From Massilia soli (GTDB taxonomy: Bacteria > Pseudomonadota > Gammaproteobacteria > Burkholderiales > Burkholderiaceae_D): a stretch of DNA of 64,000 nucleotides. Positions 1 to 16,890 of the stretch are shown here, in pieces. Every line of letters begins with the position of its first letter. Within the stretch, counting starts at the first letter, position 1. The notes under the pieces are model-generated. The model did not search any database. It saw only the letters and a list, made by a program, of their open reading frames with translations, and was not told the origin of the DNA. Location: positions 682,001-746,000 of the forward strand of contig NZ_JAFBIL020000001.1 of assembly GCF_016809835.1 (NCBI RefSeq). The letters are read 5' to 3'. The position numbers were made by a program, and so were the translations under genes.

Positions 1-1
1 G

Positions 2-1135
2 GATATGCTGTTGACGGGATGGGACGCGCCGATTGTCGGAACCATGTACCTCGACAAGCCATTGAAGGAACACACGCTGTTGCAAGCGATTGCTCGGGTC
101 AACCGCACCATGGCGGGTAAGAATGCGGGCTATATCGTCGATTACCATGGGGTGGTGGAACACCTCGACCATGCGCTGAAAGTCTACGGTGGTGCAGTGC
201 AGCCAGCCCAAGTGTGGGAAGGCGTCGAGACCGAATTACCGAAGCTGCAAGCGACACTCGACCGTATTCTTAAACTTCTGCCGAAAACGCACGACCCGGC
301 CGGGCAGCGCGAGGATTACAAGGATGATGCTGAGCGCTTCCTTGACCCGTCAAGTAGGCTGGACGCGGTAGAAGACTTCCTGGAGTTGGTCAAGCAGTTT
401 AACCGCAGCATCGACATCATCTTGCCCGATGCGCGTGGCGTACCCTTCAAGCCGTACTTCACGCTGTTCGCGGAAATCCGCCTCATGCTGCGTGACAAGC
501 TGCCGGGCAACACCTACCGCGAGCGCATCACAAAGCTAGAGTCTGTACTTTTGCAGCAACTGCTGGATGAGTATATCGCCGCGAGCCCGGCCAAAAGTCT
601 GCTGGGCAAGGAGGTTTCGATTCTGGATGCCAGCGATATGGCCCGTCTTCGGAAACTGGCGAGCCCGGGTAGTCAGGCGCTGGTGATGAAAAACCAGTTG
701 AAGCATACCATTGTCACCGGCAGAGACAAAGACCCAGCCTTCTTCGACAAGCTGGCCGAGGAACTGGAAAAGCTGCTGGCGGAAGAAGCCGCCGGCCGCA
801 TCAGTCAGGCCCAGTTTCTGGAGCAGCTCGACCTGTTTGGTCAACGTATCAAAGACAAGGACAATACCGGCTTCTCTCATCCGGCGCATTCAGCCGTGTA
901 TCACTACTTGGCCGCCTTATTGGCGGATGAAACAGCCAGGGTGGCAACTACCAAGCTGTTCCAAGATGTCCGCCTAAGTAGCGCAATTGCTGCGGCCAAC
1001 TGGAAACTGATGCATGACCTCCACCCGGAAGTCCGCGACTTGCTGCGCAAGTTGTTGATGCCCTTGGGCGGTTGGGAGCGCTCGGTCGCGCGCGACCACG
1101 CAAGCCGCATCCTGGATATTCTGCTCAAGAACTGA
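2..1135 (+). CDS. hsdR: Type I restriction enzyme R subunit, C-terminal part (cut by window start)
   Basis: This is the 3' portion of a type I restriction-modification motor/endonuclease subunit; the open frame runs in from before base 1. The visible protein opens with [10 protein letters not shown] and then has the SF2 motif VI stretch QAIARVNR, the usual end of the HsdR helicase core. The remaining 300-plus residues are the helical C-terminal domain that docks on the methyltransferase. HsdR translocates DNA with ATP and cleaves unmodified DNA. The nuclease domain, hsdM and hsdS would lie upstream and are not visible. The stop at 1133-1135 is two bases before the next gene, so they are probably co-transcribed. 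Confidence 0.9.
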
Positions 1136-1137
1136 CC

Positions 1138-1848
1138 ATGCCCGTTTTGCAATACGGCCAGACCATCATCGAATGGCGCTTTCAACCCGATACCAAGCTG
1201 AAGCGCCATTACGTCACCGTGGAGCGGGGGCAGTCCGTGTTGTTGCGTGGGCCGATAGTGGACGAGGCACTACAAGAGACCCTAGTGCGCCGTCGTGCCC
1301 GTTGGATACGGGAAAAGCTGGCATTGGTAAACATGCCACAGAGCGCCGAGGCCATCACCACGGGAAGCCGGCTACGCTACTGCGGCCGGACATACTTCAC
1401 CGAGGTGCGACATTGTCCGGACCTGTCCAAACCCCGCCTAACCTTTACCGCATCGCGTTTCGTAGTCGAGAATCCAAATGGCATCAGTATTCAGCCCGAT
1501 GCACTGATGCCCGTACTGGAGAGTTTCTATCGTGACCGCGCACATGACAAGCTGCCGTCGCGGGTTCGTCATTGGGAGCGCCAGACTGACTTGAAGGCGC
1601 AAGGTGTTCGTGTGCGCTATTTCCAGAGCCGATGGGCCAGCTGCAATGCGCAGGATGTGCTGGAGTTTCATCCAAGGGTAATGGAGCTTTCCTCGAGCGT
1701 TCAAGACTATGTGATTCTTCACGAGCTCTGCCACACCGTGGAAAAGAACCACACAAGGGCGTTCTGGGCCTTGCTCGCTCGACACATGCCCGATTGGCAG
1801 CGGCAACATGAGGCGTTGGAACACACACTTTATGGAGATGCGATTTGA
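1138..1848 (+). CDS. YgjP/M48-type zinc metallopeptidase linked to hsdR
   Basis: The product is 236 aa. The ATG at 1138 was chosen because it directly follows the hsdR stop; an in-frame upstream start at 1072 would overlap hsdR. The C-terminal half carries the zinc motif H195-E196-L-C-H199 with a further H205 (KNHTRAFW), preceded by the WASC segment typical of YgjP-like (DUF45) metallopeptidases. Small proteases of this type are often found directly behind hsdR, but their role in restriction is not established. It could process or control the restriction complex (inference). It is the last gene before the transposon-like region. Confidence 0.85.
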   Translation: MPVLQYGQTIIEWRFQPDTKLKRHYVTVERGQSVLLRGPIVDEALQETLVRRRARWIREKLALVNMPQSAEAITTGSRLRYCGRTYFTEVRHCPDLSKPRLTFTASRFVVENPNGISIQPDALMPVLESFYRDRAHDKLPSRVRHWERQTDLKAQGVRVRYFQSRWASCNAQDVLEFHPRVMELSSSVQDYVILHELCHTVEKNHTRAFWALLARHMPDWQRQHEALEHTLYGDAI

Positions 1849-2595: not shown

Positions 2596-3432
2596 ATGAT
2601 GGCGCGGAGGAGATACGTGTTCGATGAACAACGCGTCCAGAAGTTCATTGCGCAAGGTCGCGGCCAAGGTCAAGGACCGACATACAAACCATGGTTGCAG
2701 ATTCAAGACGTACCGTCGCTTGGCCGGTCTCATCGTCCTTACGGAATCAAGACCCGCCGTGTCCACCACTTCCTCTCTGATGGAGAATGGAAGTCGTTTC
2801 TGAAATTCGAAGCCGACCCTAGTGTGGTCGATATTCGTGAACAATTTCCGATGGACCGTTTGCAAACACTGCGGGCGGCCATGAAGCTCGGGTACAAACA
2901 TCCCATCACCCTGGATGGGACGCCGTATGTGATGACCGTCGATTTCCTTATCACTCGACGAGTTGAAGGAAAATATTTGATTGAACCGTACACGTTCAAG
3001 TATGCCCCGGCAACGCTCAGCAAAAGAGATAGCGAGCTCATTCAAATCGCCGAGGCGTTTTGGAAGGACAACGGCTTCCAACTCCGCGTCATTGACGAGA
3101 ATTTCTTCGATGAAGCACTCGTGCTGAACTACGACTCGGTCCGAACCTACTTCGAAATCTCAAACCTCGCGTTTTTCCGACATACGAACGTGCTGTTAGT
3201 AGCGCAAGCAATCAGGGACAGAATCGTACAACGGCGTCCCGAAGACCTCGTAAGCGCATGCGCCCATATCGCGCTGTCGCATGCGAGCGACCCGCAAATC
3301 GTATTTTCGATTGCTATGCATCTGATTGCTCGCGGCGGCATCCTTGTCGACTACAGTCGGACTCTTGGCTTGGAGCGAAGGCTTCTTTCTGACTTCGAAC
3401 TGGCTCAGAATTCCGAGGAGCCGCTCCAATGA
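2596..3432 (+). CDS. tnsA: Tn7-like transposase subunit TnsA (5'-strand endonuclease)
   Basis: The product is 278 aa, close to Tn7 TnsA (273 aa). TnsA has a restriction-enzyme fold and cuts the 5' strands at the transposon ends, so that with TnsB the element is fully excised. The catalytic set is visible: E64 in the DGEWKSFLKFE helix, D116 in MTVDF and K135 in the Y-T-F-K strand. These match E63, D114 and K132 of Tn7 TnsA in place and spacing. A GAGG ribosome site precedes the ATG; a second ATG follows directly at 2599. Its stop overlaps the tnsB start by 4 bases (ATGA), as expected in an operon of interacting subunits. Confidence 0.93.
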   Translation: MMARRRYVFDEQRVQKFIAQGRGQGQGPTYKPWLQIQDVPSLGRSHRPYGIKTRRVHHFLSDGEWKSFLKFEADPSVVDIREQFPMDRLQTLRAAMKLGYKHPITLDGTPYVMTVDFLITRRVEGKYLIEPYTFKYAPATLSKRDSELIQIAEAFWKDNGFQLRVIDENFFDEALVLNYDSVRTYFEISNLAFFRHTNVLLVAQAIRDRIVQRRPEDLVSACAHIALSHASDPQIVFSIAMHLIARGGILVDYSRTLGLERRLLSDFELAQNSEEPLQ

Positions 3433-5609
3433 TTCTCGTCAAGAACACGCTATTTGAAGACCGGTTGACGGGCGCAGTCATCCGTCTTTTAGCTGAGCTC
3501 ACATCGGGTAAACCCAACGACAACGAGTCGACCCATGCGGTCGTCATAGATATCAACGACGCACGTGCCATGCCGAAGGTAGTGGGAAAAACGAAGCTGT
3601 TGGAACGGATAGCTAACTTCGAGCTGAAATCTATTCATGAGCAGAGCGACTCTATAAACCTCGCCGCCCTCACCCCCAGCGAACATGCGATTGTAGAAAG
3701 ACGATGGTCGCTCATACAGAGCCTCACCGTCCATGGCGACCTTTTGTTCGATGAGTCGTTCAGAGGGCAGGAAGCAAAGCGACTTGTCATCGCTAAAGTA
3801 GCCTCTAAGCCGTTTTTCTATAAAACCCTGAGACTGTATTGGCAACGCGGCGGGGGAAAGGGGAGCTTGGTTTCGAACTTCCCTAACTGCGGGCGCCCTG
3901 GCGAACGTCGTGTCGCATCGAACAGCTCACCGAAGCCTGGCCGACCGCGGACGGTGCAACCAGGCGTCGGTGTGGCTGCCACTGAATTTCATAGAGCTAA
4001 CATGCGCATTGCTTGGTCGCGCTCGCCCGTAGGAACGACAGGCAAGGGGCTTGAAGGCGCGTATTCGTGGATGCTAATCACTCGTTATCCCGAGCATGTA
4101 TCTATCGAAACAGGTAAAAAAAAGCAGAAGGTCGTGCTGAGCAATTACGATTCCGTTCCGACGTTCGAACAGTTTCAATATCATTGGAAAGCTGAGCACT
4201 CCTACGAACTGCGCCAGTTGAACCGTATGCAGCAACGCAGGTTTGACCTCGCATTCAAGCCGTTGTTGACCGGTACCATGAAAGAGGTACGGGGCCCCGG
4301 CACGCGCTACTACATCGACGCGACCGTTCTCGACGTCTATTGCGTTTCGCGCCTGAATCGCAATCGGATTGTGGGACGACCGACGCTATATGTCGTAGTA
4401 GACCAATTCTCAAGGATGATTGTCGGCATGTACGTTGGTTTAGAGCCCCCATGCTGGACAGGCGCAATGCTCGCCCTTTGGAACTGTTCAATCGACAAAG
4501 TGGCGTTTTGCGCTAAATACAACGTAGATATCTCAGCCGAGAGTTGGCCAACTGCTCACATGCCCGTGCACCTCATGGGCGACCGGGGAGAGCTCACTTC
4601 CTCTCAGGCAGATGCGCTTTCGGAGGGATTCTCAATCGACGTGGAAAATTCCCGTCCCTACGCCGGTGATGCAAAGGGTGTGGCCGAGCGCGTTTTCGGA
4701 ACTTTGCAGACGAAATTTGGTCCCTACCTGCCAGGGTATGTCGACAAGGAGTTTCTCGGTCGAGGAGCCGAGCCTCCTGCACTACGCAGCGCTATGGATG
4801 TGTTCGAGATTACCCGGGCAATGGTCCTAGCAGTGCTCCACACGAACTTGCGCGTAGTCCGTGATTACGAGGGGTGGCCCGAGGTAGTTGCAGCGGGAGT
4901 TCCGTTTGTTCCAGTAGAGCTTTGGAATTGGGGAGCGAAAAATCTACGATGTGACGCCCGTCAGTACGATGAGGCTCACTTGGTGCGTTACCTCTGGCCC
5001 CGAGGAAAAACAAGGCTTAACCGCAAGGCACTTCATCTCACGAGAGGTCTGTTCTACATGGGCGTCGACCTCGTTTCGCAACCCTGGTTTGCAAAATCCT
5101 TTATTGAGCGGCGGGAGTTGGAGGTTGCATACCACCCATCGGAGATGACCACAGCGGTAGTTATACGCGACGAAGACCGTGTAGCTACTTATCACGTTGA
5201 ACTCACGCAGCGGTGCAATCGCTTTAAAGGATATTCATTAAGTGAAGTAATGGCTCTTCAAGGACACGCCGACAGGACCAATGCCGCTGCTAAGTGGGAA
5301 AACCAGCCCACCCAGGCATCCCTGGAAAAACAAATACATGACACAGTAAAAGAGGCGCGGCGTCGCTCAGCAGAGCAGGTCGACAAATCACTGTCGAAGG
5401 CAGAGAGACTGAGAGCGGTCCGCGATAATCGTGCCGACGAAATCGGTGCGTTGACCGAGGAGGTGATTTCCACCCTGACTGGCGGAGAAATTTTCGGCGC
5501 AGCGGTCCGTGCGGAAATGCTCGTTCCGTCTGTGGAAGAGGACCAAACCCTAATCGCTGTTCGGCAACTCATTGAGAGCCGGACGCTTCGCAGGAAGGCA
5601 AACACATGA
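3429..5609 (+). CDS. tnsB: Tn7-like DDE transposase TnsB
   Basis: The product is 726 aa, near Tn7 TnsB (702 aa). TnsB is a retroviral-integrase-type recombinase that binds the transposon ends, cuts the 3' strands and joins them to the target. The catalytic triad reads D297 (YYIDAT), D385 (MGDRGE) and E420 (GVAERVFG); the second D and the E are 35 residues apart, a D35E spacing identical to Tn7 TnsB. The N-terminal part carries the DNA-binding helices, and the lysine/arginine-rich tail after residue 600 would contact TnsC. It overlaps tnsA and tnsC by 4 bases on either side. Confidence 0.95.
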   Translation: MILVKNTLFEDRLTGAVIRLLAELTSGKPNDNESTHAVVIDINDARAMPKVVGKTKLLERIANFELKSIHEQSDSINLAALTPSEHAIVERRWSLIQSLTVHGDLLFDESFRGQEAKRLVIAKVASKPFFYKTLRLYWQRGGGKGSLVSNFPNCGRPGERRVASNSSPKPGRPRTVQPGVGVAATEFHRANMRIAWSRSPVGTTGKGLEGAYSWMLITRYPEHVSIETGKKKQKVVLSNYDSVPTFEQFQYHWKAEHSYELRQLNRMQQRRFDLAFKPLLTGTMKEVRGPGTRYYIDATVLDVYCVSRLNRNRIVGRPTLYVVVDQFSRMIVGMYVGLEPPCWTGAMLALWNCSIDKVAFCAKYNVDISAESWPTAHMPVHLMGDRGELTSSQADALSEGFSIDVENSRPYAGDAKGVAERVFGTLQTKFGPYLPGYVDKEFLGRGAEPPALRSAMDVFEITRAMVLAVLHTNLRVVRDYEGWPEVVAAGVPFVPVELWNWGAKNLRCDARQYDEAHLVRYLWPRGKTRLNRKALHLTRGLFYMGVDLVSQPWFAKSFIERRELEVAYHPSEMTTAVVIRDEDRVATYHVELTQRCNRFKGYSLSEVMALQGHADRTNAAAKWENQPTQASLEKQIHDTVKEARRRSAEQVDKSLSKAERLRAVRDNRADEIGALTEEVISTLTGGEIFGAAVRAEMLVPSVEEDQTLIAVRQLIESRTLRRKANT

Positions 5610-7108
5610 GTTCCCTCCCCCCCAAAAAAACCGCTGCACCCGAAGCCCTTATTGGCTCGCCATACAGTTTCGGGGTGGTGCCCATTCACGCCGTGTACCT
5701 GGCGGCGACACTACCTTCAGAACTCGGCAATCCACTCATTGAGGCACTTCCAGCAATCAAAGACGACACGGGGTGGCTTGAGCAATTGCTGTCCTTGCCG
5801 ACATTCGATGAAGGTCATCTGGAATTGGAGGCGTACTTGCGTTCATATTGTGTTGCTGAGTTAAAGAACGCGTTCATTCCGAGCGCAAGGCATTTATCCG
5901 TTGCGCGAAGGATTGACCAGCTGATTCGATGGGGGTATCGAAAGCGGAACCCATTGTTGCCCGAAAGAGCGTCAGCTCTGCAGAAATCATATGAGCGAGC
6001 GCAAGCCTCCAGGGGGCACCAAAGGATAGTTTTTGCGGAGAATCAACCCATCTGTAGCTACTCGCTGGTCGGTGCTTCTGGCTTGGGTAAGAGCACAACG
6101 ATGGAGTCTATTCTCAATGCCTATCCGCAGTACATCCTGCATCCGTCTCACAATTTGTTCCAGATAGTCTGGTTAAAAGTTGAATGTCCGAAGGATGGCA
6201 GCGTTAAGGAACTTGCTCTCAGCATCCTAAGAGGATTTGACCGTGTGCTGGGAACTCGTCATGCACCCGATAAATCTAGCAACATTACCACCAGTTTCCT
6301 CACCAACAAGGTCAATCATCTCGCTTTAACTTACAGCTTGGGTCTCCTGGTGCTCGACGAACTTCAGAACCTCAGCATTAAGAAAAGTGGCGGTCGTGAG
6401 GAGATGCTGAACTGGTTTCAAGAGCTTGTTAATGAGTTGCGACTCCCTGTTGTAATGATGGGCACGTTCAAGGCGCGGTCCGTTTTGCAGCTGGATGTCC
6501 GTCACTCACGGCGCAATGCCATCACGGGGAGTGCGACCTGGCGGCCGATGGAAATGGGACCTGAATTCTTACAGCTCCTTCAAAACATATGGGAATACCA
6601 GTGGTTGCGAAATCCGGGAGAGCTTACTTCCGAAATGGCACAGGTGATATTCGACGAGACCCAGGGTGTCAATGCCTTCGTGGTTGACATGTTCTTGATT
6701 GCGCAGCTTTATGCGCTGAGGAACAACGTTGAGTCACTCAACTCAAAGCTGTTCAAGACTGTTGCCAGAACTGAGTTTGAACCTCTCCAATCGTTTTTGA
6801 ACGCGTTGCGCTCGAAGGACCCTAACCGTTTGAAAAAGTTCGAAGATGCTCTTGGTTACGATATTGAGGAGTTGATTGAGAAAGAGCAGCGGCTTATCAC
6901 CCATGGGCAGCCGGAAAAAAATCCGACTGCGGAGGCCTCGTCGTTGACCGCGCGGGCTACGGCTAATGTCCGTTCCACCCTTGGATTGACCGAACCAGAC
7001 GCGCGAAAGCTCGTTGTGCACGTGCTCGACGGTTCGCAACAGACCGTCCAGGCCATTACGAAAGCTGCGCTCTCTGCGTACTTCAGAATGTCGGAGGAAT
7101 CTTCTTAA
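5606..7108 (+). CDS. tnsC: Tn7-like AAA+ regulator TnsC
   Basis: The product is 500 aa. TnsC is the ATP-dependent adaptor that forms filaments on target DNA and links target selectors (TnsD or TnsE) to the TnsAB transposase. Walker A is G156-A-S-G-L-G-K162-S-T and Walker B is LLVLD251-E252, followed by the LQNL segment typical of TniB/TnsC ATPases. Length is similar to Tn7 TnsC (555 aa). Its start overlaps the tnsB stop (ATGA), and its stop shares one base with the tnsD start (TAATG), so all four tns genes are translationally coupled. Confidence 0.93.
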   Translation: MSSLPPKKTAAPEALIGSPYSFGVVPIHAVYLAATLPSELGNPLIEALPAIKDDTGWLEQLLSLPTFDEGHLELEAYLRSYCVAELKNAFIPSARHLSVARRIDQLIRWGYRKRNPLLPERASALQKSYERAQASRGHQRIVFAENQPICSYSLVGASGLGKSTTMESILNAYPQYILHPSHNLFQIVWLKVECPKDGSVKELALSILRGFDRVLGTRHAPDKSSNITTSFLTNKVNHLALTYSLGLLVLDELQNLSIKKSGGREEMLNWFQELVNELRLPVVMMGTFKARSVLQLDVRHSRRNAITGSATWRPMEMGPEFLQLLQNIWEYQWLRNPGELTSEMAQVIFDETQGVNAFVVDMFLIAQLYALRNNVESLNSKLFKTVARTEFEPLQSFLNALRSKDPNRLKKFEDALGYDIEELIEKEQRLITHGQPEKNPTAEASSLTARATANVRSTLGLTEPDARKLVVHVLDGSQQTVQAITKAALSAYFRMSEESS

Positions 7109-8796
7109 TGAGTGCTATCGAAAGCCGCACAGCTGTACGCAATCGGGCGATTGTGGGCCTACCGCAGCCACTTCCCGACGAGCTCTTATACAGCGCCATC
7201 GCTCGCTCGGCTAAGTATCTAGGACAGTGGGGTCCAAAGTCCTTGTCTAGGGAGATTTACGGCCACCAAGGCATCCTTGCGTGCCCGGACTTACCAGGTT
7301 CGCTGGGGTTACTTGAAGAAGTCTCAAATGGCGTTTGGGGCATAACCACAACGCAGCTGGCGCTCCGTCACACCCTTGTCGGCTACTACACACATTTTCG
7401 CTCGGTAGAGCAGCGGCGGCAGGTACTCATCAAAATGCAAGTTTCATCAAGCAACCTGCACTTAAGTCTGGGAATCTGTGCGAGCAACGTTATCGCGCCT
7501 TCCAAATTTCACCTCTGCGCTGCATGTACAGCTGACGACATGTCAGTTTATGGTGAGACCTATTGGCGGCGGTCCCATCACCTGCCGGGAGTACTGGTAT
7601 GCGCTAGACACGGGCTTCCGTTGAGCGTTTGTCAGTTTCCCTTTAGACCGAAGGGACGACATGAACATATAGCAGCACATCCTCGCATGCTGGATAACGT
7701 CATAGACTACATGTCACCTCCAGAATATGGAGCCGAATGGCAGTTGGCGAAGGCATCTGTCGCGCTTTTAGATTCGCCCGTGGCGGACCAAGTTTATGAC
7801 TATCGCCCTGCGCTCAAGCTTTTAGGTTACGTGGGGCGGCACGAAGGAACGGCCGGGTTGAAAGCGGATTTCGAGCGATTTTACGGCGAAGGTCTTCTGA
7901 AGTATTTTTTTAAGCCGCGACTTGATGGGAATCGCGTCGGCTGGATTGACGAGATTGTGCGCAAGCCGCGCCGCGCTCTGCATCCTCTGAAGCACCTAAC
8001 GATTTCGCTTTTTATCGAACGCCACCCGCGTAGGCTTCTGGAGTCCGCTGTTCCACAGAAGGAAAAGACATGGGGCATATACCGTGTAGAGCACCGTCGT
8101 GCGGAAGCGCGAGAGCTCGCCGACCGTGGATTCTCGACGAACGCTGTCGCGGCAAAGCTAGGTGTGGACTGGAAGACGGCCGAGCGAATGCTTTCTTCAC
8201 TCCCCGTATCGGAGCCGCGGCGCGGCGTCCAACAAGATGAGCGGGACCAGGGCGCATGGTTGGGCTTAAGGAGGGAAAATCCAAACGCATCCCGAACGGA
8301 GCTAAGACGGTTGGACCCGTCGCTCTACGCTCGCCTTTATCGAGCGGACCGGCAGTGGCTGATGACTCATGGGCCGTTACGGTTGGCGGCAAACAACGGT
8401 AGGAACAGCGCTCGCGTTTGTTGGGCCACTCGAGACCATAAGCTGAGCGAAACCGTTCTGGCCGAGGTAGCTTCATTGAGAAGTCGCTGCCCTCCTCTTA
8501 GAGCGTCGAAAAATCGCGTGCTCGCCAATTTGGAACTTCGCGCACTTGTTCACCATTATGGCGACAAGCTTCCAAGGACAGTTGCGACCCTTAACGCCAT
8601 GTGCGAGGGCGTCCCCGATTTTCATCTACGGAGACTTACAGCTGAGGTTTCGAAACAGCGGACAAGTGGAAGGCCACTATCACCATCGGCAGCGCTACGT
8701 CGAGCCGGCATTAATGCTGCAAGATTCGCCGACGGTGGCGCGGCATTACTTGCCGCCGCCGTTTCGGCTAGCATTTTTTCGCAAGATAAAAACTAA
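7108..8796 (+). CDS. tnsD: Tn7-like target selector TnsD (TniQ family)
   Basis: The product is 562 aa, slightly longer than Tn7 TnsD (508 aa). TnsD-type proteins bind a specific chromosomal attachment sequence and recruit TnsC. The N-terminal TniQ domain shows the zinc ligands C137-x2-C140-x24-C165-x2-H168. The middle has a helix-turn-helix-like stretch (GFSTNAVAAKLGVDWKTAERML) suited to sequence-specific binding, as in the long TnsD branch rather than the short TniQ proteins of CRISPR-associated elements. The attachment site it recognises is unknown; the peptidase/hsdR side of the island is the obvious place to look. Confidence 0.9.
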   Translation: MSAIESRTAVRNRAIVGLPQPLPDELLYSAIARSAKYLGQWGPKSLSREIYGHQGILACPDLPGSLGLLEEVSNGVWGITTTQLALRHTLVGYYTHFRSVEQRRQVLIKMQVSSSNLHLSLGICASNVIAPSKFHLCAACTADDMSVYGETYWRRSHHLPGVLVCARHGLPLSVCQFPFRPKGRHEHIAAHPRMLDNVIDYMSPPEYGAEWQLAKASVALLDSPVADQVYDYRPALKLLGYVGRHEGTAGLKADFERFYGEGLLKYFFKPRLDGNRVGWIDEIVRKPRRALHPLKHLTISLFIERHPRRLLESAVPQKEKTWGIYRVEHRRAEARELADRGFSTNAVAAKLGVDWKTAERMLSSLPVSEPRRGVQQDERDQGAWLGLRRENPNASRTELRRLDPSLYARLYRADRQWLMTHGPLRLAANNGRNSARVCWATRDHKLSETVLAEVASLRSRCPPLRASKNRVLANLELRALVHHYGDKLPRTVATLNAMCEGVPDFHLRRLTAEVSKQRTSGRPLSPSAALRRAGINAARFADGGAALLAAAVSASIFSQDKN

Positions 8797-8805
8797 GGGA
8801 TGCAA

Positions 8806-9633
8806 ATGAGCATGGCCACAAGTTCAAGTGTTGGATGGGTTGTTGGGTGGGCGCGTGCGCGAAGCGGTATGGAGTTGCGTGCACTTGTTCCGGAAGGGCT
8901 ACGCTGGGCGGAGGTACCAGTCCTACGTGATTTTTTGCTGACATCGCGGAGCTTCGAACCATCCCTGAGTCCCTTCAAGCGTTTAGTTGGGAGTAACCTT
9001 AAATTTGATATAGGGGATATGTCCAATCTGTCAGCACTCATCGAGCCAGGAAGGTTCATAGGACACATTCTTCCCGCCGCGCGACGTTCTGAACACGCGG
9101 TCTATATCGTCGATACAGAGCAAGGTCCTATCTACGTTCCTGCGATGCTGCTTATTCGGGCACTTTGGTACTGGTCAAAGCGGGCCGGCTCAATTTTGAT
9201 GACTCCGAACGGTTTGGATATTCATGTCAGCGCGGCCAAGGACAGGGGCGATTTCATAGAATGCTCGGCAAGTCGGAAGCTCGCATCTTCCCAGCCAAGC
9301 GACCTGCTCCTTCGGCGCCTGGCGTGGCTTTCTCTTTGCGATGACGCACGGCGCTCTTGGACGAGCGTACTCCGCCACGCTCATCAGGGCCGTCTTGGAC
9401 TGACGCTGCCAAAGGCAAGCATACAAGGCTGGGCATGGGGCGTGGAAATGCACGGGGGTTTGCTGGCAGCGGAGTTGATGTCGGTTGATATTCGGTTCGA
9501 GCTTCCTACTACGCCCATGATGCTTCGTATCGGGACGGCGATTTACGACGTTCCTACTTGGATGCCTCAAGTTGCCAGCGACGTTCACCATGCGGCATCA
9601 CAACTGCAATTTCGCGGAGGAGCTAATGGTTGA
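8806..9633 (+). CDS. Short TnsE-like protein (N-terminal half only)
   Basis: The product is 275 aa from the ATG at 8806, which has AAGGG six bases upstream; an ATG at 8800 is an alternative. It occupies the position of tnsE in the order A-B-C-D-E. Compared by eye with Tn7 TnsE recalled from memory, the layout agrees in three places: a VPAMLLIRALWYW segment (residues 111-123) where TnsE has its sliding-clamp-binding stretch, a LLLRRLAWLSLCDDARRSW helix (167-185) and an IQGW motif (206-209). The DNA-binding C-terminal half of TnsE (538 aa in Tn7) is absent. If related, it may steer insertion to replicating DNA. Homology is an inference, and an unrelated element-specific protein is possible. Confidence 0.5.
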   Translation: MSMATSSSVGWVVGWARARSGMELRALVPEGLRWAEVPVLRDFLLTSRSFEPSLSPFKRLVGSNLKFDIGDMSNLSALIEPGRFIGHILPAARRSEHAVYIVDTEQGPIYVPAMLLIRALWYWSKRAGSILMTPNGLDIHVSAAKDRGDFIECSASRKLASSQPSDLLLRRLAWLSLCDDARRSWTSVLRHAHQGRLGLTLPKASIQGWAWGVEMHGGLLAAELMSVDIRFELPTTPMMLRIGTAIYDVPTWMPQVASDVHHAASQLQFRGGANG

Positions 9634-10039
9634 CAAAGTGAATTCGTCTATTTCGGATGAGGAAGCATACGCACAGGTTCCTTCAAACTTCCCACGCCCT
9701 GTTCGCCTTGGCGCGCTACCAGGGGCACAGCCAAAATTGTTGGCTTCGCATTACAACGGGCGGTTCTACGCGCCTGGCAGTAGTCCGCCCGAAGTATTCG
9801 AGCGATGGACCGTATGTGAAGACTTGGCACAACAGCTTGCTACGAAGTCACTCGAATCGAAAGCGGGCAAGCGTTCGCATTTGACCGAGGCGGAAATATT
9901 AGACCAGTACCTGCCGCGCCTCATCGCCACCCACTGGACTTCAGAAGCGGAGGCCAAGTGGGTCATTCGGCGGACTGCTGAGCTTTTAAACTGGCCTGCG
10001 CCGTCGTCTGTTGCATCCGCTCAAGAAGATTTAAAGTGA
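9626..10039 (+). CDS. Transposon-associated protein of unknown function
   Basis: The product is 137 aa from the ATG at 9626, which has an excellent GCGGAGG ribosome site; an in-frame upstream ATG at 9572 lies inside the previous gene. It overlaps the TnsE-like gene by 8 bases (ATGGTTGA), so the two are probably translated together. No catalytic motif is visible. The central part reads as mixed strand and helix (GALPGAQPKLLA, then an ERWTVCEDLAQQL helix) and the C-terminal third is helical with tryptophans. It may replace the missing TnsE C-terminal domain or act as a partner; this is speculation from gene order. Confidence 0.7.
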   Translation: MVDKVNSSISDEEAYAQVPSNFPRPVRLGALPGAQPKLLASHYNGRFYAPGSSPPEVFERWTVCEDLAQQLATKSLESKAGKRSHLTEAEILDQYLPRLIATHWTSEAEAKWVIRRTAELLNWPAPSSVASAQEDLK

Positions 10040-10114
10040 CGCTTTCGACGAGACAGAGGGGAACTCCTCAACTTAGGCAAGTTAAACGTTGGTAACCCTG
10101 TGGAAGGGGGCGCT

Positions 10115-10642
10115 ATGCAGCAAGGATGTGAATCAAAGACACCGCGAGGCGGTGGTGGGCTAAAGGTTTGCTACCTCGACTTTGATGGTGTCTTGCATGA
10201 CGATTCAGTTTACTGGAACTCAAAGATTGGCATCCACATCCGGCAGCCTGGTCGCACGTTGTTCGAGTGGATGCCGGTCCTCGAAAAACTCCTCCTCCCC
10301 TACCCTGATGTGAGGATTGTCCTATCGACGTCGTGGGTACGAGTCAAGAGTTTCGAGTTCGCCAAGCGTGAATTATCGCCAGCGCTGCAGGCGCGCGTTG
10401 TAGGTGCCACGTACCACAACCGTGAAATTCAAAAATTCGATTTTGATAATATGTCTCGGGGCGCGCAGGTCCTCGCCGACGTTCATCGTCGTGACCCGGC
10501 GAGTTGGTTTGCCATTGACAACGATGGCCTTGGCTGGCCCGATGCGCACAAAGATAAGTTAGTGTTGACTGATGACCGAACCGGCATAAGTGACCGAACT
10601 GTGCAGGAGAATATCAGAAAAATGTTGGAGAGATTCCGATGA
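10115..10642 (+). CDS. HAD-fold phosphatase-like protein (HAD_SAK_2 type)
   Basis: The product is 175 aa from the ATG at 10115, preceded by GGAAGGGGG; a GTG at 10100 is an alternative. HAD motif I is L21-D22-F-D24-G, motif II is L70-S71-T-S-W, and the late acidic motif is D135-N-D137-G. The compact form without a cap domain resembles the HAD domain named after multi-domain RNA-repair proteins. Such stand-alone proteins are common cargo in mobile and defence islands; substrate and role are unknown. It follows the tns operon after about 75 bases and may have its own promoter. Confidence 0.75.
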   Translation: MQQGCESKTPRGGGGLKVCYLDFDGVLHDDSVYWNSKIGIHIRQPGRTLFEWMPVLEKLLLPYPDVRIVLSTSWVRVKSFEFAKRELSPALQARVVGATYHNREIQKFDFDNMSRGAQVLADVHRRDPASWFAIDNDGLGWPDAHKDKLVLTDDRTGISDRTVQENIRKMLERFR

Positions 10643-10955
10643 CGAATCAGTCTTCTTGTCAGGTGCCCCGGAACGATGGCAATGGTACTTGAACGGCAAA
10701 TCGGCGAAGCTGAAGCTCGTGCTGATGCGAAACGAAAGTTGACGCAAAATTAAAGTTGACACTGAAGCTCGTCGTATAGCGGAGGCGCGCACGAAGTCAG
10801 GGAAGACGTGGTTCCGGCGACCGCATGTCGGGACAACGTCCACAAGGATGCAGTCATTCTGGAATGTGCGGAGAGTGAGTCGGTCAGCTCAAGGAGCTGA
10901 CCGGTCCAGATTGTCGACCGAATAAAATCCCGAGGGACGTCGAAGCTGAGTTCCA
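10643..10955. other. Gene-free stretch between convergent genes, with coding relics
   Basis: This interval separates the HAD gene from the end of hamB. One frame around 10687-10760 reads ERQIGEAEARADAKRKLT, as if a fragment of a helical protein survived. The words CTGAAGCTCGT and AAAGTTGAC each occur twice here within about 70 bases. It looks like a degraded or rearranged piece of DNA rather than a gene. Confidence 0.4.
10881..10903. terminator. Perfect 10-bp hairpin between convergent genes
   Basis: CGGTCAGCTC (10881-10890) and GAGCTGACCG (10894-10903) form a perfect stem with a 3-base loop. No T-run follows on either strand, so it is not a classical intrinsic terminator. Its position between two converging genes still suggests a bidirectional stop or RNA-stabilising element. 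Confidence 0.4.
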
Positions 10956-13900
10956 TTAACGCGCAACAAACGTTCGCTCCACGGTTACCTCTGCGTCTTT
11001 TATACGTAATACAAAGTCGCTACTTTTCGAGGTTTTCAAGAATTTGTCGTCATCGCTCGACTCCGCAAGTTTATACCCAGCTGCGTCAATCCAATCTATG
11101 CTGCTACCTCGCCGTAGCGGCACGACATCGTACCTAAATTTGGCGCCATTTGTACCGGACAGCTTAGCGGGCCAGGAGGTAACACCGCTGACGTTCGACG
11201 TTGGAAGTTCAAGGCTTTGTTGCCATGCCAAAAAGAGTTGAGGGTCTATAAAATCGTCGGCTTGTGGGGATGGGATTTGACCTACAAGCCATTTTTTGAA
11301 TTGCGGCAGCATTTCTTCTGCGGCAGTCCGGGTCTTTGCCAGCGCTTGGGTCATGGCAAAAGCTACGAATGGCTCAAGGGTGCCCCAACGGAGAAGTTCC
11401 TTCGCCCAGAAACCAATCCATGGCAGTCCGGTTGCTTCCTTCCATTCCGCCAGAGACGGGACTTTAAGCGGGTCATCAATTCCCTTCGCCCAAGCCTGTG
11501 ATGCGACGGCGCCAAGAGCTACCCCAAGCCTGAATTCAAGATTTTCTGAAACAAAGCGTTGCCAGCTTCGGAGGTCATCCGGCGTGGGTTTATGCGCGGA
11601 CGGAACATTCATCCACCACCCAAGCACTGTGGGCCATGTAGACATCAAAACTCGCCCAGACACGGAATTTTGTGTCTTGAAGCCGAAGCCTCTGTCACTA
11701 ACGAGTGGCATGGCCAGGTCCTTAAAAAGCTGAAGTCGCTGCTCGGGAGCCTCGATACCATAATTTGTCGCGTCGGCGACCAATGAGTGCAAGATTGTGG
11801 CTGTCTTCTCGAAGCGCCTACCGACAATAGGGGTGAACCCATATTGATACAGCCGCTTTCGTTCGTCTGCATCTGGATATAGCGTTGTTACGACCGCCAC
11901 GCCACGCTTAATGAATGCCGCCTCAAGCCATTCTTCGCTCCGTCTCACAACAGCAGTGAACGTCGTCTTCCATACCTCAGCAAGTAAACTTTCTACCTGG
12001 CTTGGAAGCAGCTCATCCGCAGAGGCTTTTAACTCTTCGATTGAATTCAGTAGAATTGAGTCAAGCTCGTCGAGAGTGTCCGCTAATCGCGCAGGTGCTG
12101 AACTTGCCCCGCTTCCCGCCTCATCAGAAATTTGAAGCGGAGCCGTCACTTCGAGCCATCGCAAAAAATCACCTGGTGCGCGTAAATTCAATACGCTTTC
12201 AACTTTGTCCTTTAGTGTGGCTATCAACAATCCAAGAGGGCTTACAACCTCATGTGCAGCGCGCTCTTCCGCAAGTAGCCGTCCAAGCAAGTTTGAATAA
12301 TTCTGGTTTAGCTCGGCAATTTGCCTGCCTTGCGATGCGCGCTGGGATTTTGCGGTTGTGCTAGGCGTCTGCGGCAGCGCGACCAATATCATTCCTTCCA
12401 TCCCATCCGCTGACCCAGGGCGCCCAGCGCGGCCCGCCAAGTTCCGAAACTCTGCGGTTGGCATTTCGTTTACGATACGAACCGCATTTGCTTCATCGAA
12501 AGAGCTTCGTTGAAGTGACGTTAGGAAAATCAGGTCAAATGGCAGGTTCACTCCTTCGGTCAAGGTAGCAGTAGCGACAGCAATCGCACATACTTTTCGC
12601 TCAATTAGACTTACCATCAAGCGCCGCAACCGCTGCGGCATCTGGCCATGGCTCGTTACGATTCCCCGGTCTAGGAGGGCGAGCTCATGCGAGTCGACAC
12701 CACAATAGTCAATGCATGTCTCCCGAGCCTCCTGGAATAATGCAGAAAGCGTTGCGTTTCCATGGACTGCGGGATTTCCCAAGCCTTCCCACCCCTTCAT
12801 ATTTAACGCTTCGGCATACCACTTCATTGTCCTCTCCGGCGACTGCATGACGGAAATGAGGATACGCCGCCGTCCTTCAACAAGTTGAAGTCCTGTCCAT
12901 AGAACCTGTAATTGATTAAAATGATTTAGGCTATTTCTAATCGTCGCTCCAGGCTTTGGCATTTGTTGGAACCGCAAACCGATGAAAACTGGTTCCTGGC
13001 GGTTTCTGACGAAAAGCGGCTGGCCGTTGAGATGGTCCAACACTATACGACCAGGCCCAGTAGGAGAAACTTCCAGAGCACCGACGAGTTGCCTTGTACT
13101 CCGATAATTGGCACCTACCGGAACCGCGTTCGTCGAACCTTCAATCCAATCTGCAACCGGTTGAGCGGCACCGCCGGCAACAGCTGTCAGTGCTATTCGT
13201 ACGATGTTGGGCTTTCTAGCCAAAAGCCTGGAAACAAAGCTTTCAAGCCGAATTGACCGATTGTTATGCTCCGCAAAGGAATCCTCTCCGCGTTTGGTGT
13301 CATCTGCGACAACTTGGTGAGCCTCGTCTACTATCAGCAGGCGTAGTCGCGAAAGGAGAAGGGGCCCTGCGTAGCGCATTAACGCATCGGCTTTTTCCAC
13401 GGTCGCAATCAGTACACTTGGCTTATTGGAGTTTATCCAGTAGTCGGTGATACCCCAGTCTGCGCCGCCGTACAAGCCCGTGATTATTAGGTCGCGTCCC
13501 AGTTCGCTGGACAGTTTGCTTTCTACTTCTCCGGCCAGTGCCCTGGACGGGACGAGATACAGTGCTAAAGGAGCTGGCCCTTCTACCACAGGAACTAACA
13601 GTTCTTTGAGTAATGCGAAGTTTGCTACTAGAGTTTTCCCAGAACCAGTGGGTGTGCAGAGTGCGAACGAACTGCTCTCAAGCAGTCTGCTAAGGCCACG
13701 TTGTTGTGATGGCCAGAGTGTGCCCCTTGCGCGGCTGAACTGTTCCCTGGCGAATAGCTGGAGTCGACCAGCAAAATCATTGTTCAGCGATGCAAGGGCG
13801 TTCGCAGGAGCATATATGCTATTTACGACATACCCCTCAGCTGAGTCATTTATCAGATTCAGGAGCGCAGACATAGCCTCGCTGCAGGTACGAGCGGCAT

Positions 13901-14576
13901 AGTTCGCCAAGGCTTTTAGTTTAGACAGGGCTTGGTTAAGTCTAATGTCATTACCCCGACGGAGTGCGTCGGAGAAGAGCCCAACGCCGCGGACCAACTC
14001 AACAGTAATATGCCACTCGAAGCGGTCCTCAGCTTGTTCATCAAGTAAACCTCTAGCCCCCTCCACCGATGTAAGGGAAGGGTGTTGCACCCAAAATTCA
14101 GTTGCGTGGCTGACAACCGAATCGAAATCGCCTCCTAAAAACGCAGCGATTAATGCTGCGCCCGGCTCGCTATCGTCAACTTGGCGTAACAGCCCTGTAG
14201 CCATTGCAGGAAGCCCGCCAAGTTGGTATGCTCCGGCCGCCAAAAGCTCGATTGGCGCTTCCGCCGCGACGTTCCCTTCCCCCGACCGCACGAGCCATTC
14301 AAGCAATTCTCCAGCCCGGCGGTAACAATCCAAGGCATGGGGCGAATTTCTCCCTTGCGTTTGACGAAAGATTCCCGCCACATGCAACAGACGCTTTGCA
14401 TCTCTGAATTGGTCGTTCGATTCGCGTTCGCCCCAACGATTCAACGGGACGTCCCAAGACAACTGTAAGCACCGAACGAAAAGCCTTGCTTGCGACGCCG
14501 TTAATATGTTCTCTTTGCCCAAGACTGCATGCACTTGATTCGCGATTTCCAGCCGCTGCTCGTTGAGGTCAGCCAT
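10956..14576 (-). CDS. hamB: Hachiman anti-phage helicase HamB
   Basis: The product is a 1206-aa superfamily 2 helicase. Walker A is CTPTGSGK314T, Walker B is VD417EAH420, motif V reads ATLTEGVNLPFD and motif VI is N712-L-A-G-R-A-G-R719, a Ski2-like arrangement. About 300 residues precede the motor and about 480 follow it. In the Hachiman system, HamB scans DNA and releases the nuclease HamA when it meets abnormal DNA. Its start overlaps the stop of the upstream hamA gene by 8 bases. The call depends mainly on pairing with the DUF1837-like protein; a lone repair helicase is less likely. The AT-richer base use than the core genome fits acquired cargo. Confidence 0.82.
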   Translation of the reverse strand: MADLNEQRLEIANQVHAVLGKENILTASQARLFVRCLQLSWDVPLNRWGERESNDQFRDAKRLLHVAGIFRQTQGRNSPHALDCYRRAGELLEWLVRSGEGNVAAEAPIELLAAGAYQLGGLPAMATGLLRQVDDSEPGAALIAAFLGGDFDSVVSHATEFWVQHPSLTSVEGARGLLDEQAEDRFEWHITVELVRGVGLFSDALRRGNDIRLNQALSKLKALANYAARTCSEAMSALLNLINDSAEGYVVNSIYAPANALASLNNDFAGRLQLFAREQFSRARGTLWPSQQRGLSRLLESSSFALCTPTGSGKTLVANFALLKELLVPVVEGPAPLALYLVPSRALAGEVESKLSSELGRDLIITGLYGGADWGITDYWINSNKPSVLIATVEKADALMRYAGPLLLSRLRLLIVDEAHQVVADDTKRGEDSFAEHNNRSIRLESFVSRLLARKPNIVRIALTAVAGGAAQPVADWIEGSTNAVPVGANYRSTRQLVGALEVSPTGPGRIVLDHLNGQPLFVRNRQEPVFIGLRFQQMPKPGATIRNSLNHFNQLQVLWTGLQLVEGRRRILISVMQSPERTMKWYAEALNMKGWEGLGNPAVHGNATLSALFQEARETCIDYCGVDSHELALLDRGIVTSHGQMPQRLRRLMVSLIERKVCAIAVATATLTEGVNLPFDLIFLTSLQRSSFDEANAVRIVNEMPTAEFRNLAGRAGRPGSADGMEGMILVALPQTPSTTAKSQRASQGRQIAELNQNYSNLLGRLLAEERAAHEVVSPLGLLIATLKDKVESVLNLRAPGDFLRWLEVTAPLQISDEAGSGASSAPARLADTLDELDSILLNSIEELKASADELLPSQVESLLAEVWKTTFTAVVRRSEEWLEAAFIKRGVAVVTTLYPDADERKRLYQYGFTPIVGRRFEKTATILHSLVADATNYGIEAPEQRLQLFKDLAMPLVSDRGFGFKTQNSVSGRVLMSTWPTVLGWWMNVPSAHKPTPDDLRSWQRFVSENLEFRLGVALGAVASQAWAKGIDDPLKVPSLAEWKEATGLPWIGFWAKELLRWGTLEPFVAFAMTQALAKTRTAAEEMLPQFKKWLVGQIPSPQADDFIDPQLFLAWQQSLELPTSNVSGVTSWPAKLSGTNGAKFRYDVVPLRRGSSIDWIDAAGYKLAESSDDDKFLKTSKSSDFVLRIKDAEVTVERTFVAR

Positions 14577-15531
14577 TTGTCACTCCAGACCACAAGGTGT
14601 CGTAGACTTGTTTTATTAAATCCCCTCCCTTTTCCAAGAACGCCTCCACTACGTACAATTCCCTGCCTGCCTGATATTCGCTCGGTAGTGTATCGGAGCG
14701 GACAAAAGTCTCGCCCGGTTTTCTCTTGCTAGGGCTCCCGCCGGAAAAGACAACCAAATCCGTTCGGGGTACAGTATGCGATGGGTTGATTGCAAGAATT
14801 TTGTCCAACGAAAGAATTGCATTTGCATACTTTATCGGTTCCCGTTCAATCAGAATGGCTTGTAACTGGAGCAGTCCCTCTGGAACCGTAGGTGCTTCCT
14901 CGAAAGCGCGCCAAATACCGTCTTTTCCACGAAGCGGCATCCCGCCAGTTTTCGCCGTCTCTCGACTTCCAAGCAGAAGGTCCTCAACACTAAGTTTGGA
15001 AAGGGAACCTCTATATTTTGACTCACCAACGATAATCCTCTCGATGTTCTTGTCTGAGTCAAACCCAACTCCGATAAAATCATCGCCGAGTCGCCCCCAT
15101 AGCTGACGAGTACGACTTGGGTCTCTCGCCAAAAAAAAGAGGTACTTGCCGGCGTCATCGTGATGGCGAAATAGGAAAACCGGTACTGACCACGAGTGCT
15201 TTTCGTGTTGTGCCTGGTAGGCTTCAACCACTAAACCTGCGAATACTTCACCAAAAATTCCGTGCCGGGCCTTCTGGGGGAGGCTAGTTGGATATTGACA
15301 TGTGGAGCTGCTACCTAGCGAATCCGGATGAAGGTCGATTTTCGCGTACTCATGAAAAAAACGCCTGGCATCTGTGTGCGCCGACTCAAAATACGGACGC
15401 AGTTGCGCAGCTAGGTCTGCAGGTGCCGTCGCGCTCGACTCCAAAAGTAGATGCGTATATCCCGGTACCGTCGTTGCCGATTCTTTGAGCCAAGCTTTTA
15501 ATGTAGAGACAGGTACGGGACAAGTATGCAT
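14569..15531 (-). CDS. hamA: Hachiman effector HamA (DUF1837, PD-(D/E)XK nuclease fold)
   Basis: The product is 320 aa. DUF1837 proteins are the nuclease partners of HamB-type helicases (Hachiman; also AbpA of AbpAB). Visible nuclease residues are E95 in the helix GEVFAGLVVEA, an aspartate in GDDFIGVGFD (D151 or D158) and E170-S-K172 in the strand IIVGESKY, giving the E...D...ExK pattern. After the nuclease core there is a helical C-terminal part. It is the first gene of a two-gene minus-strand operon with hamB (8-base overlap). When released by HamB, HamA degrades DNA and blocks phage growth (family knowledge). No strong ribosome site precedes the start. Confidence 0.82.
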   Translation of the reverse strand: MHTCPVPVSTLKAWLKESATTVPGYTHLLLESSATAPADLAAQLRPYFESAHTDARRFFHEYAKIDLHPDSLGSSSTCQYPTSLPQKARHGIFGEVFAGLVVEAYQAQHEKHSWSVPVFLFRHHDDAGKYLFFLARDPSRTRQLWGRLGDDFIGVGFDSDKNIERIIVGESKYRGSLSKLSVEDLLLGSRETAKTGGMPLRGKDGIWRAFEEAPTVPEGLLQLQAILIEREPIKYANAILSLDKILAINPSHTVPRTDLVVFSGGSPSKRKPGETFVRSDTLPSEYQAGRELYVVEAFLEKGGDLIKQVYDTLWSGVTNG

Positions 15532-16091
15532 AGTTCATTAGTAGTTGATAAATTGCCCAAACGGGAGAAACGTACGCTGCTCGATGGTCCAACGCTTTAA
15601 AAGGCCAAGACGCGTAGGTCAGCGCACATTAAAGATAGCGGCGCGTACCACCTAAATCACCGATTGGGTTTAAGCAGGCCTTGAACAAGCGTATTGCATG
15701 TTCGACAACAAAGAACTAGAGTCAGTTTGGTGGTGAAGTTATAATTTAACAAGTGACAAGTCTACGCGATTTAACATGGCTACATGCAATAGATTGACCT
15801 TGAGCGATTCTGAGCGGGTTTGCTGTAGGCCTTTGCGGCCCGGACTCATTTCGTGGAAATTTCGCAGTAGCAGAAACGGGACGTTGTAGAGGGCGTTTCT
15901 GGATGTAGGTCAGCACCTTCTGCGTCGTGCAAAAATGCAGCGAATGTCGGCGGCGGTGGGTAGTGTTATGTGCCGGGCATGAGTAAAAGCCGCTTATAAC
16001 GCAGGCATGTTACTGCAATTTTGGCCACCGATTGGTAGCTGACGTTGGCGGCCAACTTGGACCGAGTCGTAATTAAAGGAACATTTTCACG
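15532..16091. other. Intergenic region before hamA and the nuclease-like gene
   Basis: These 560 bases separate the divergent hamA and 16092 genes and must hold their promoters. No protein gene was recognised. TATAACGC at 15995-16002, read on the minus strand, repeats GCGTTATA of candidate transposase site 2 and is followed by a GCCCGG-like block, but the match is weak. Confidence 0.35.
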
Positions 16092-16553
16092 ATGCCACAT
16101 AGCGAAGAATACGTCCGCAAGGCGGTGGAGAGTGCGATATTAGAGCTCATTAGTGCGGACTCTCTTCTGCTTGACGCCAATTGTAGCGAACGTAGCATTA
16201 CCCATCAATTGGCGACGCATTTATCTAAGCATTTTACTGGCTATCACGTGGATTGCGAATACAATCGGGACGGTTTCGAAGTCAAAAAACTTCAGTTGGA
16301 TGAACGGACAGTTCGCGCCGACCGGCTTGACGCTATAACAGTTTTTCCCGATATTATTGTTCACGTTCGAGGCACTTCAGACGCAAATCTGCTTGTCGTC
16401 GAGGTGAAGAAGGCGTCCTCATCAGTCAACAATTCATATGATATTGCTAAGCTCCAAGCGTTCAAGACGCAACTACTCTACGACTTTGCAGTGCACGTCG
16501 TAATTGGATACAAACGCGACGGCAGTTTTGTTAACCGGCAATCCTGGCAGTGA
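16092..16553 (+). CDS. Solitary PD-(D/E)XK-like nuclease domain protein
   Basis: The product is 153 aa with no other domain. A helix SERSITHQLATHL (E33) is followed by a strand with P86-D87 and, 17 residues later, VVE104-V-K106-K. This E...PD...ExK order is the restriction-endonuclease-like core. The spacing matches small hypothetical proteins often found in defence islands. It may be a nuclease or a degraded/regulatory relative; no partner gene is attached. Codon use and A/T content resemble the transposon cargo rather than the later chromosomal genes. Confidence 0.6.
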   Translation: MPHSEEYVRKAVESAILELISADSLLLDANCSERSITHQLATHLSKHFTGYHVDCEYNRDGFEVKKLQLDERTVRADRLDAITVFPDIIVHVRGTSDANLLVVEVKKASSSVNNSYDIAKLQAFKTQLLYDFAVHVVIGYKRDGSFVNRQSWQ

Positions 16554-16890
16554 ATTAAGGCGCGACGAATGGGTCAAATCCGGGAGGATGTGCAGGATTT
16601 TCGGTTGCTGCATTGACACGTGGATGTTTTATACCGCCCGGTAATCGACAATATTTCTCTACCCCGGCGAAAGCTCTGCTCAGACCTTCAGTGTCGCCTT
16701 CATGAGTAAGCGACTCTAGTGGGGATTGTCGACATTCAGTCCTTGCACCGTAAGGTTTTTCGCGTCGCCCTGTAAGCAACATAATTTTGTGCGCACAGTG
16801 ATCCGCTTTGGAAAAGCGAGTGTCTAGCAAACTCGTGGCGATTCAGGGCCGCTTTGGCCATCGACAGTCAGGGTCTGGATACTCGTCGAC
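16554..16890. other. Gene-free stretch near the island edge
   Basis: No credible gene, repeat family or tRNA was seen in these 337 bases. A minus-strand frame at 16555-16830 lacks a ribosome site and any recognisable pattern. The base composition is still mixed. The far end of the transposon may lie here or shortly after. Confidence 0.3.

Follow-up and report, generated by a model that had tools for sequence, protein, structure and literature searches.

A gene directly behind tnsD in a Tn7-like transposon of Massilia soli, here called mini-tnsE, encodes a 275-aa protein that is homologous to the N-terminal part of TnsE and stops short of any recognisable C-terminal DNA-binding half. The homology of this N-module, the absence of a recognisable C-half, the intact catalytic residues of the transposition proteins and the ends of the transposon are well supported. 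The interpretation that we favour, at a probability of a little under one half (roughly 0.48), is that of a truncated TnsE left by the gain of cargo, with a replication-fork/plasmid route that would be impaired or lost.

TnsE proteins form two divergent branches and combine a dsDNA-binding domain with an SSB/PriB-like N-terminal part that holds two PriB-related SSB domains (PMC10293859, in the text available). TnsE homologs are described as almost universal in elements at glmS and comM, the recruitment of TnsC by TnsE as of unknown mechanism, and mechanistic information beyond the prototype Tn7 as missing (accessible part of PMC11406308). The tnsE gene is said to be weakly conserved and possibly under-detected (PMC8649781, in part), and Tn7-like elements with tnsE lost or tnsD truncated have been described (PMC7500258, in part). 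In the accessible portions of the literature on TnsE, truncation, Tn7 and glmS, no N-only TnsE was found.

The window, that is, the whole stretch of 64,000 nucleotides analysed, carries the following features (one end of the element lies outside it):

Window coordinate -5485 (C11:676515), outside the window: likely right end of the transposon, TGT, 25 bp past the glmS stop
1..1848, + strand: cargo on the right-end side of tnsA: an hsdR-like gene (3' part) and a metallopeptidase-like gene, named by eye
2596..3432, + strand: tnsA (Pfam TnsA N-terminal domain, 40.2 bits)
3429..5609, + strand: tnsB, transposase (295 bits against Tn7 TnsB; Pfam match below the cut-off)
5606..7108, + strand: tnsC, AAA+ ATPase (TniB/AAA_22; Walker A and B kept)
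7108..8796, + strand: tnsD, presumed glmS-site selector (TniQ and TnsD domains, 562 aa)
8806..9633, + strand: mini-tnsE, 275-aa protein limited to the N-terminal module of TnsE (match over residues 89-225); residues 111-123 are the presumed clamp-binding segment, by alignment with TnsE
9626..10039, + strand: 137-aa gene, cargo, sharing 8 bp with the 3' end of mini-tnsE
10115..10642, + strand: HAD_SAK_2 domain protein, cargo, with a relative near a relative of the 137-aa gene in locus L005
10956-14576, - strand: HamB helicase of a Hachiman-like pair, cargo
14569-15531, - strand: HamA-like protein of the same pair, cargo (the pair spans 10956..15531)
16092..16553, + strand: PD-Lambda-3_A-like protein, cargo
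16776..16797, + strand: likely left end of the transposon, ...TTTTGTGCGCACA
16798..16802, no strand: GTGAT, likely target-site duplication; the same 5 bp precede the right end

The N-terminal module

The sequence-only reading had placed the gene directly after tnsD, and this is where it lies: tnsD ends at 8796 and mini-tnsE begins at 8806, 9 bp past the stop and in the position of tnsE in the tns operon (an alternative in-frame ATG at 8800 would give 277 aa). Its product has no match in Pfam, NCBIfam, PHROGs, PADLOC or the PDB sequences, and neither tblastn in plasmids nor single-protein pattern scans of genome contigs and viral contigs found anything with it; pattern scans of the viral contigs with the N-module alignments, and likewise with Tn7 TnsE, also found nothing.

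The relationship to TnsE that had been claimed for the protein is borne out by profile E-values and by a shuffle control. Two profiles, both built without mini-TnsE, were run with hmmsearch against 2310 stop-to-stop ORFs of at least 80 aa from loci of at least 10 kb. The classical one, made of 11 TnsE N-termini, gave mini-TnsE 15.7 bits (E 7e-4); only six proteins scored higher, three classical TnsEs that belong to the profile and three divergent TnsEs. The divergent one, made of two full-length TnsEs, gave it about 53.3 bits (E 2.9e-15), right behind three divergent TnsEs, of which two had gone into the profile, and ahead of the classical TnsEs. Among 1000 shuffles of mini-TnsE none exceeded 2.6 bits with the classical or 5.1 bits with the divergent profile. 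A profile of the DUF4096 hybrids described below gave mini-TnsE 56.9 bits. This likeness in sequence is beyond chance and confirms that mini-TnsE is homologous to the N-terminal part of TnsE. When a 3-sequence alignment was set against Tn7 TnsE by itself, hhalign gave a weak result (probability 4%, E 0.01), and an AlphaFold2 model of mini-TnsE, made from 3 sequences only, had a mean pLDDT of 31.4.

The matched stretch runs over residues 89-225 for the divergent branch and 97-196 for the classical one, and residues 1-95 and 220-275, searched alone, give no TnsE match. Of the three matching segments over residues 1-270 that had been proposed, only the middle part is therefore demonstrated.

In the alignment, mini-TnsE is collinear with 20 other N-modules, and P112, W174 and S187 are invariant across all 21. 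The putative clamp-binding region, which the sequence-only reading took to be included, does align as supposed: VPAMLLIRALW of mini-TnsE lies opposite IPQLELARSLF of Tn7 TnsE, P112 opposite P121, in what we take to be the clamp-binding segment of Tn7 TnsE, at about 121-131. Residues P112, L116, R118 and L120 of the segment are kept, and two TnsE-conserved positions are changed, E to L at 115 and F to W at 121. Mini-TnsE keeps 26 of the 73 positions that are invariant in the divergent branch. At 22 positions 80% or more of the full-length TnsEs agree; mini-TnsE retains 45% of these, as against 58-96% in full-length TnsEs scored leave-one-out and 36-59% in six DUF4096-type proteins, so that it looks no more decayed than the latter.

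With Tn7 TnsE (the plasmid R721 copy, L006:16637-18253) it has in common the position after tnsD, a collinear N-module, P112/P121 and the W174/S187 motif, at 16% identity in the alignment; it differs in being without the linker and the C-terminal domain (PF18623; PDB 5d16, 5d17, 9d5l). The closest full-length TnsEs are those of the divergent branch (L013/L025, L018/L066, L077; E 2.9e-15), to whose three N-terminal parts it is 20-27% identical and one of which, L025, also lies beside a glmS gene. These are proteins of 535-546 aa with a C-half (PF18623 is not reached in L013 and L018), whereas mini-TnsE has none.

The C-terminal half and the adjoining gene

The claim that the C-terminal DNA-binding half is absent stands, as far as profiles would recognise it, for the element, the nearby frames and the genome. 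Profiles of the TnsE C-half found nothing credible in the window and the overlapping 20 kb upstream (best 7.6 bits, E 0.47), and the full-length divergent-branch profile, run over the whole genome with E up to 10, returned the N-module only. The frames of 9401-10400 hold no remnant by the profiles of the N-module or of the divergent-branch C-half, which rules out a frameshift that hides the C-half. PF18623 found nothing in 145 genomes, our own included, in a search that was equally silent in 14 of 14 control genomes. Judging from the alignment, the mini-tnsE frame seems to end near the module boundary and not within the conserved core.

The next gene has its ribosome-binding-like GGAGGA within the last codons of mini-tnsE. 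Its family is present in 19 of 148 genomes, the own genome counted, with members at L005:10146-10514, L005:11912-12310, L020:10561-10887 and window 9626-10039, and the two copies in L005 are near a complete TnsE-N/DUF4096 gene. This spread, and the copies beside a complete hybrid, mark the gene as cargo and not as the lost TnsE half; together with the absence of any C-half profile match, the spread of the family rules the gene out as the C-half. The suggestion that TnsE is split here is thus not supported, the next gene belonging to a family of its own and no C-half being found elsewhere. The DNA upstream of the family members was compared for a cargo junction and none was seen, the sequences being too diverged. 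Members of the family turn up inside or next to Tn7-like elements as well as in other places, with a HAD-type gene nearby in the window and in L005.

Relatives of the module and the comEC hybrids

A TnsE-like match occurs in 3 of 148 genomes of relatives, 8 of 399 of the order, 3 of 369 of the class and 7 of 398 of the phylum (the own genome in each), and the survey gave 15 other genomes with a match in total. Six of these have open frames of 343-393 aa, eight of 525-609 aa and one of 191 aa; the last lacks the N-part, the opposite of mini-TnsE, and no other N-only TnsE was seen among the 15. The matches in four genomes (G967, G1029, G1194 and G1200) were judged by open-frame length only (525-609 aa). 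Loci L014 and L019 carry Pfam TnsE_C; L013 and L018 remain below it, yet align with TnsE over the full length. The profile search also places among the divergent full-length TnsEs a protein of an Azospirillum oryzae plasmid (L077:13814-15454), which is annotated as hypothetical and whose gene follows that of a TniQ.

Seven loci (L004, L005, L020-L024) have a TnsE-like protein whose C-terminus is a DUF4096 domain (examples of the genes at L004:9463-10494 and L005:8820-9848), which lies above the Pfam cut-off in six of them and at 24.8 against 34.3 bits in the seventh; the hybrid of L024 has lost its N-part. The DUF4096 domain of these hybrids is of the IS4/5 transposase type, and a short TniQ is found in most. 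Mini-TnsE itself has no Pfam match to DUF4096. Like it, the hybrids have the N-module, and most of their genes follow a TniQ gene; they differ in their DUF4096 C-terminus, their short TniQ and a separate TnsB clade. Since an N-module is joined here to an unrelated C-terminus, the classical C-half does not belong to every user of the module. Our literature search found no paper on TnsE joined with DUF4096.

In five of the seven hybrid loci an N-terminal fragment of comEC, recognised by eye from the sequence, lies on the tnsE side in the same orientation (L005:7694-8443, L020:6260-6967, L021:16355-16912, L103:15204-15842, L100:15861-16508), and these fragments break within a few codons past G(D/E)Q(R/K/S)xI. 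No such fragment was found in the 36 kb searched around the element of G056, and in G413 the contig ends soon past the hybrid gene. The C-terminal part of comEC is on the tnsA side in two (G144 and G385; L097 about 360-2249 and L024:1777-3579) and was not found in the stretches searched for the other five. The common break point and orientation suggest a Tn7-like family that targets comEC and would disable DNA uptake. Disruption of comEC by transposable elements is on record in the accessible part of PMC12955456, where Tn7 is named as a tool only, and no Tn7-like insertion in comEC was found reported in the accessible literature on comEC and Tn7-like elements. A small related ORF of ~100 aa stands just outside tnsA in four comEC-type elements (L024:3561-3863, L022:2144-2467, L058:15093-15395, G144:C3:688031-688222) and may be a conserved part of them.

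The trees give two views of the origin of mini-tnsE. The TnsB tree has 22 rows, the tnsB on the L005 contig being represented by L058. It groups the window element with TnsE-bearing elements, eight in all (95/92), on a long branch whose placement the program marks as unsure and with a best identity of 31%, and the DUF4096-type elements form one clade (99/100). In the N-module tree, mini-TnsE has the DUF4096 type as its neighbour (98/93), and its placement with the divergent TnsE branch is not rejected (p-AU 0.185). The two trees point in opposite ways, and mini-tnsE may or may not descend from the DUF4096 lineage.

The transposon and its site

Most probably the element is a Tn7-like transposon of 22.3 kb at glmS, with similar ends and a 5-bp duplication. 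In TnsA the positions aligned with Tn7 E63, D114 and K132 are kept and that of E149 is not; in TnsB the residues aligned with D273, D361 and E396 of Tn7 are kept. Upstream of the window we recognised by eye glmU, an Lrp-like gene and glmS, then hsdM-, hsdS-, hsdR- and metallopeptidase-like genes; the identity of glmS is also backed by a full-length match to a gene annotated as glmS in L076.

ACA followed by the exact GTGAT occurs once in the window, at 16797/16798, and these 8 bases are expected by chance about once per 64 kb, so that the case is built on this occurrence, on the match of the two ends at 12 of 15 terminal positions (TGTGCG..CAAAAT) and on the spacing from glmS, taken together. 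Similar sites lie further inside the ends, AAACATTGGCGGTTACCG and AAATATTGTCGATTACCG. Six end-to-end site pairs are alike at no fewer than 13 of 18 bases; since 50 shuffles gave a mean of 1.3 and a maximum of 9, the internal sites alone prove little. The right end is some 5.5 kb outside the window on its upstream side, which is why no transposon end was found close to tnsA. As to an empty site, the ~1.5 kb behind glmS in 16 same-genus genomes was unlike the sequence after the left end (the 3' end of glmS was matched in 17 of 17 same-genus genomes, own included), and the flank 1136-2600, searched in the genus, was found in the own genome only. The site is that of the TnsD route, so the insertion site says nothing about TnsE.

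With Tn7 and other glmS-site elements it has in common the tnsABCD order, an end 25 bp past the glmS stop, the 5-bp duplication and the TGT...ACA ends. Unlike them, it has restriction-type genes between the right end and tnsA, a truncated tnsE and a tnsB on a long branch, at best 31% identical to any other in the tree. The TnsF of Tn6022 is likewise, in the available account, an additional target selector beside TniQ in a Tn7-like element; by the same account it differs in being tyrosine-recombinase-like and in targeting comM (PMC10293859). Much of the recognisable cargo has the look of defence against phages: the Hachiman-like pair, the PD-Lambda-3_A-like protein and the restriction-type genes named by eye (window 10956-16553, L094:12900-19848). 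In the same family, locus L057 has a tnsABCD set (558-2384, 6536-12569) near a glmS 90% identical to that of the window, in which no tnsE was detectable. This set is reversed relative to glmS as compared with the window, and its tnsB is split over two ORFs; the set may thus be defunct and lends weak support to tnsE being dispensable.

Remnant or working module

If our preferred interpretation of a truncated TnsE is correct, tnsE would have lost its linker and C-terminal DNA-binding domain, and the N-module would have been left in an otherwise intact-looking transposon which, given its site, ends and intact genes, probably uses TnsABC and TnsD to enter the site behind glmS. A cargo pair, made up of the 137-aa gene and the HAD gene and with its start signal in the last codons of mini-tnsE, would have taken the place of the 3' part of tnsE; the C-half would have gone through this acquisition of cargo, and a protein without it could not alone select replication forks, leaving the fork/plasmid pathway impaired or lost. 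We arrive at a remnant because the case is single, cargo lies at the 3' end and conserved positions are kept at 45% as opposed to 58-96%. Against this stand a frame that is open for 275 codons and seems to stop near the module boundary, the retention of P112, W174 and S187 and of 26 of the 73 divergent-branch positions, and the DUF4096-type proteins, which keep no more of the TnsE-conserved positions (36-59%) and have the N-module with an unrelated C-terminus. No close relative of the element turned up from which to date the truncation, the best TnsB identity being 31%.

The main rival, a working minimal TnsE, is possible, if doubtful. The N-module would dock on the sliding clamp through residues 111-123 and recruit TnsC, the contact with DNA being made by the clamp. 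The best-conserved stretches are indeed partly kept (P112, L116, R118, L120; W174, S184, S187), the frame is open directly after tnsD, the transposase core is intact and, in the available part of PMC5371812, clamp loading is reported to restore in vitro the sites and orientation that TnsE selects; in the segment, however, two positions are changed, E115 and F121, TnsD explains the site of this copy, and the single case, the cargo at the gene end and the glmS site fit a truncated TnsE at least as well. It is rather unlikely, in our judgement, that the whole TnsE family is modular, with an N-part that would be a stand-alone adaptor for clamp and TnsC docking, varied DNA-targeting ends and the bare adaptor at work here. 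That the N-module is no selector at all but helps or regulates TnsC/TnsD in the glmS route we hold to be improbable: the gene has been kept in the tns operon right after tnsD, and the company of N-module and short TniQ in the comEC-site lineage makes a partnership with TniQ/TnsD conceivable, whereas Tn7 itself uses TnsABC+D at glmS (PMC2918618, in the text available). A split TnsE, whose C-terminal half would come from the 137-aa product or from another gene, could point to the 8-bp overlap and a possible co-translation; with the family in 19 of 148 genomes, its two copies near a complete hybrid in L005 and no match to a C-half profile in the window, in the 20 kb upstream or, with the divergent-branch profile, anywhere in the genome, it is very improbable. 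Hardly more credible is a chance resemblance of an unrelated protein at the tnsE position, in spite of the weak hhalign result, the low pLDDT and the outer residues that match nothing by themselves, for two profiles made without mini-TnsE place it above all non-TnsE ORFs, shuffles never come near the real scores and it is collinear with 20 other N-modules.

If TnsE is modular, it would exist in three arrangements: with the classical C-half; with DUF4096 and a short TniQ, at one point in comEC; and with no C-terminal part. The N-only TnsE and the hybrids are natural proteins with which docking on the clamp, recruitment of TnsC and binding of DNA could be told apart. Should the N-module work alone, it would be the smallest TnsE seen here; should it be inactive, it would be the record of a glmS transposon losing its plasmid route. 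Either outcome bears on the spread of such elements, of which the one in the window carries several defence genes.
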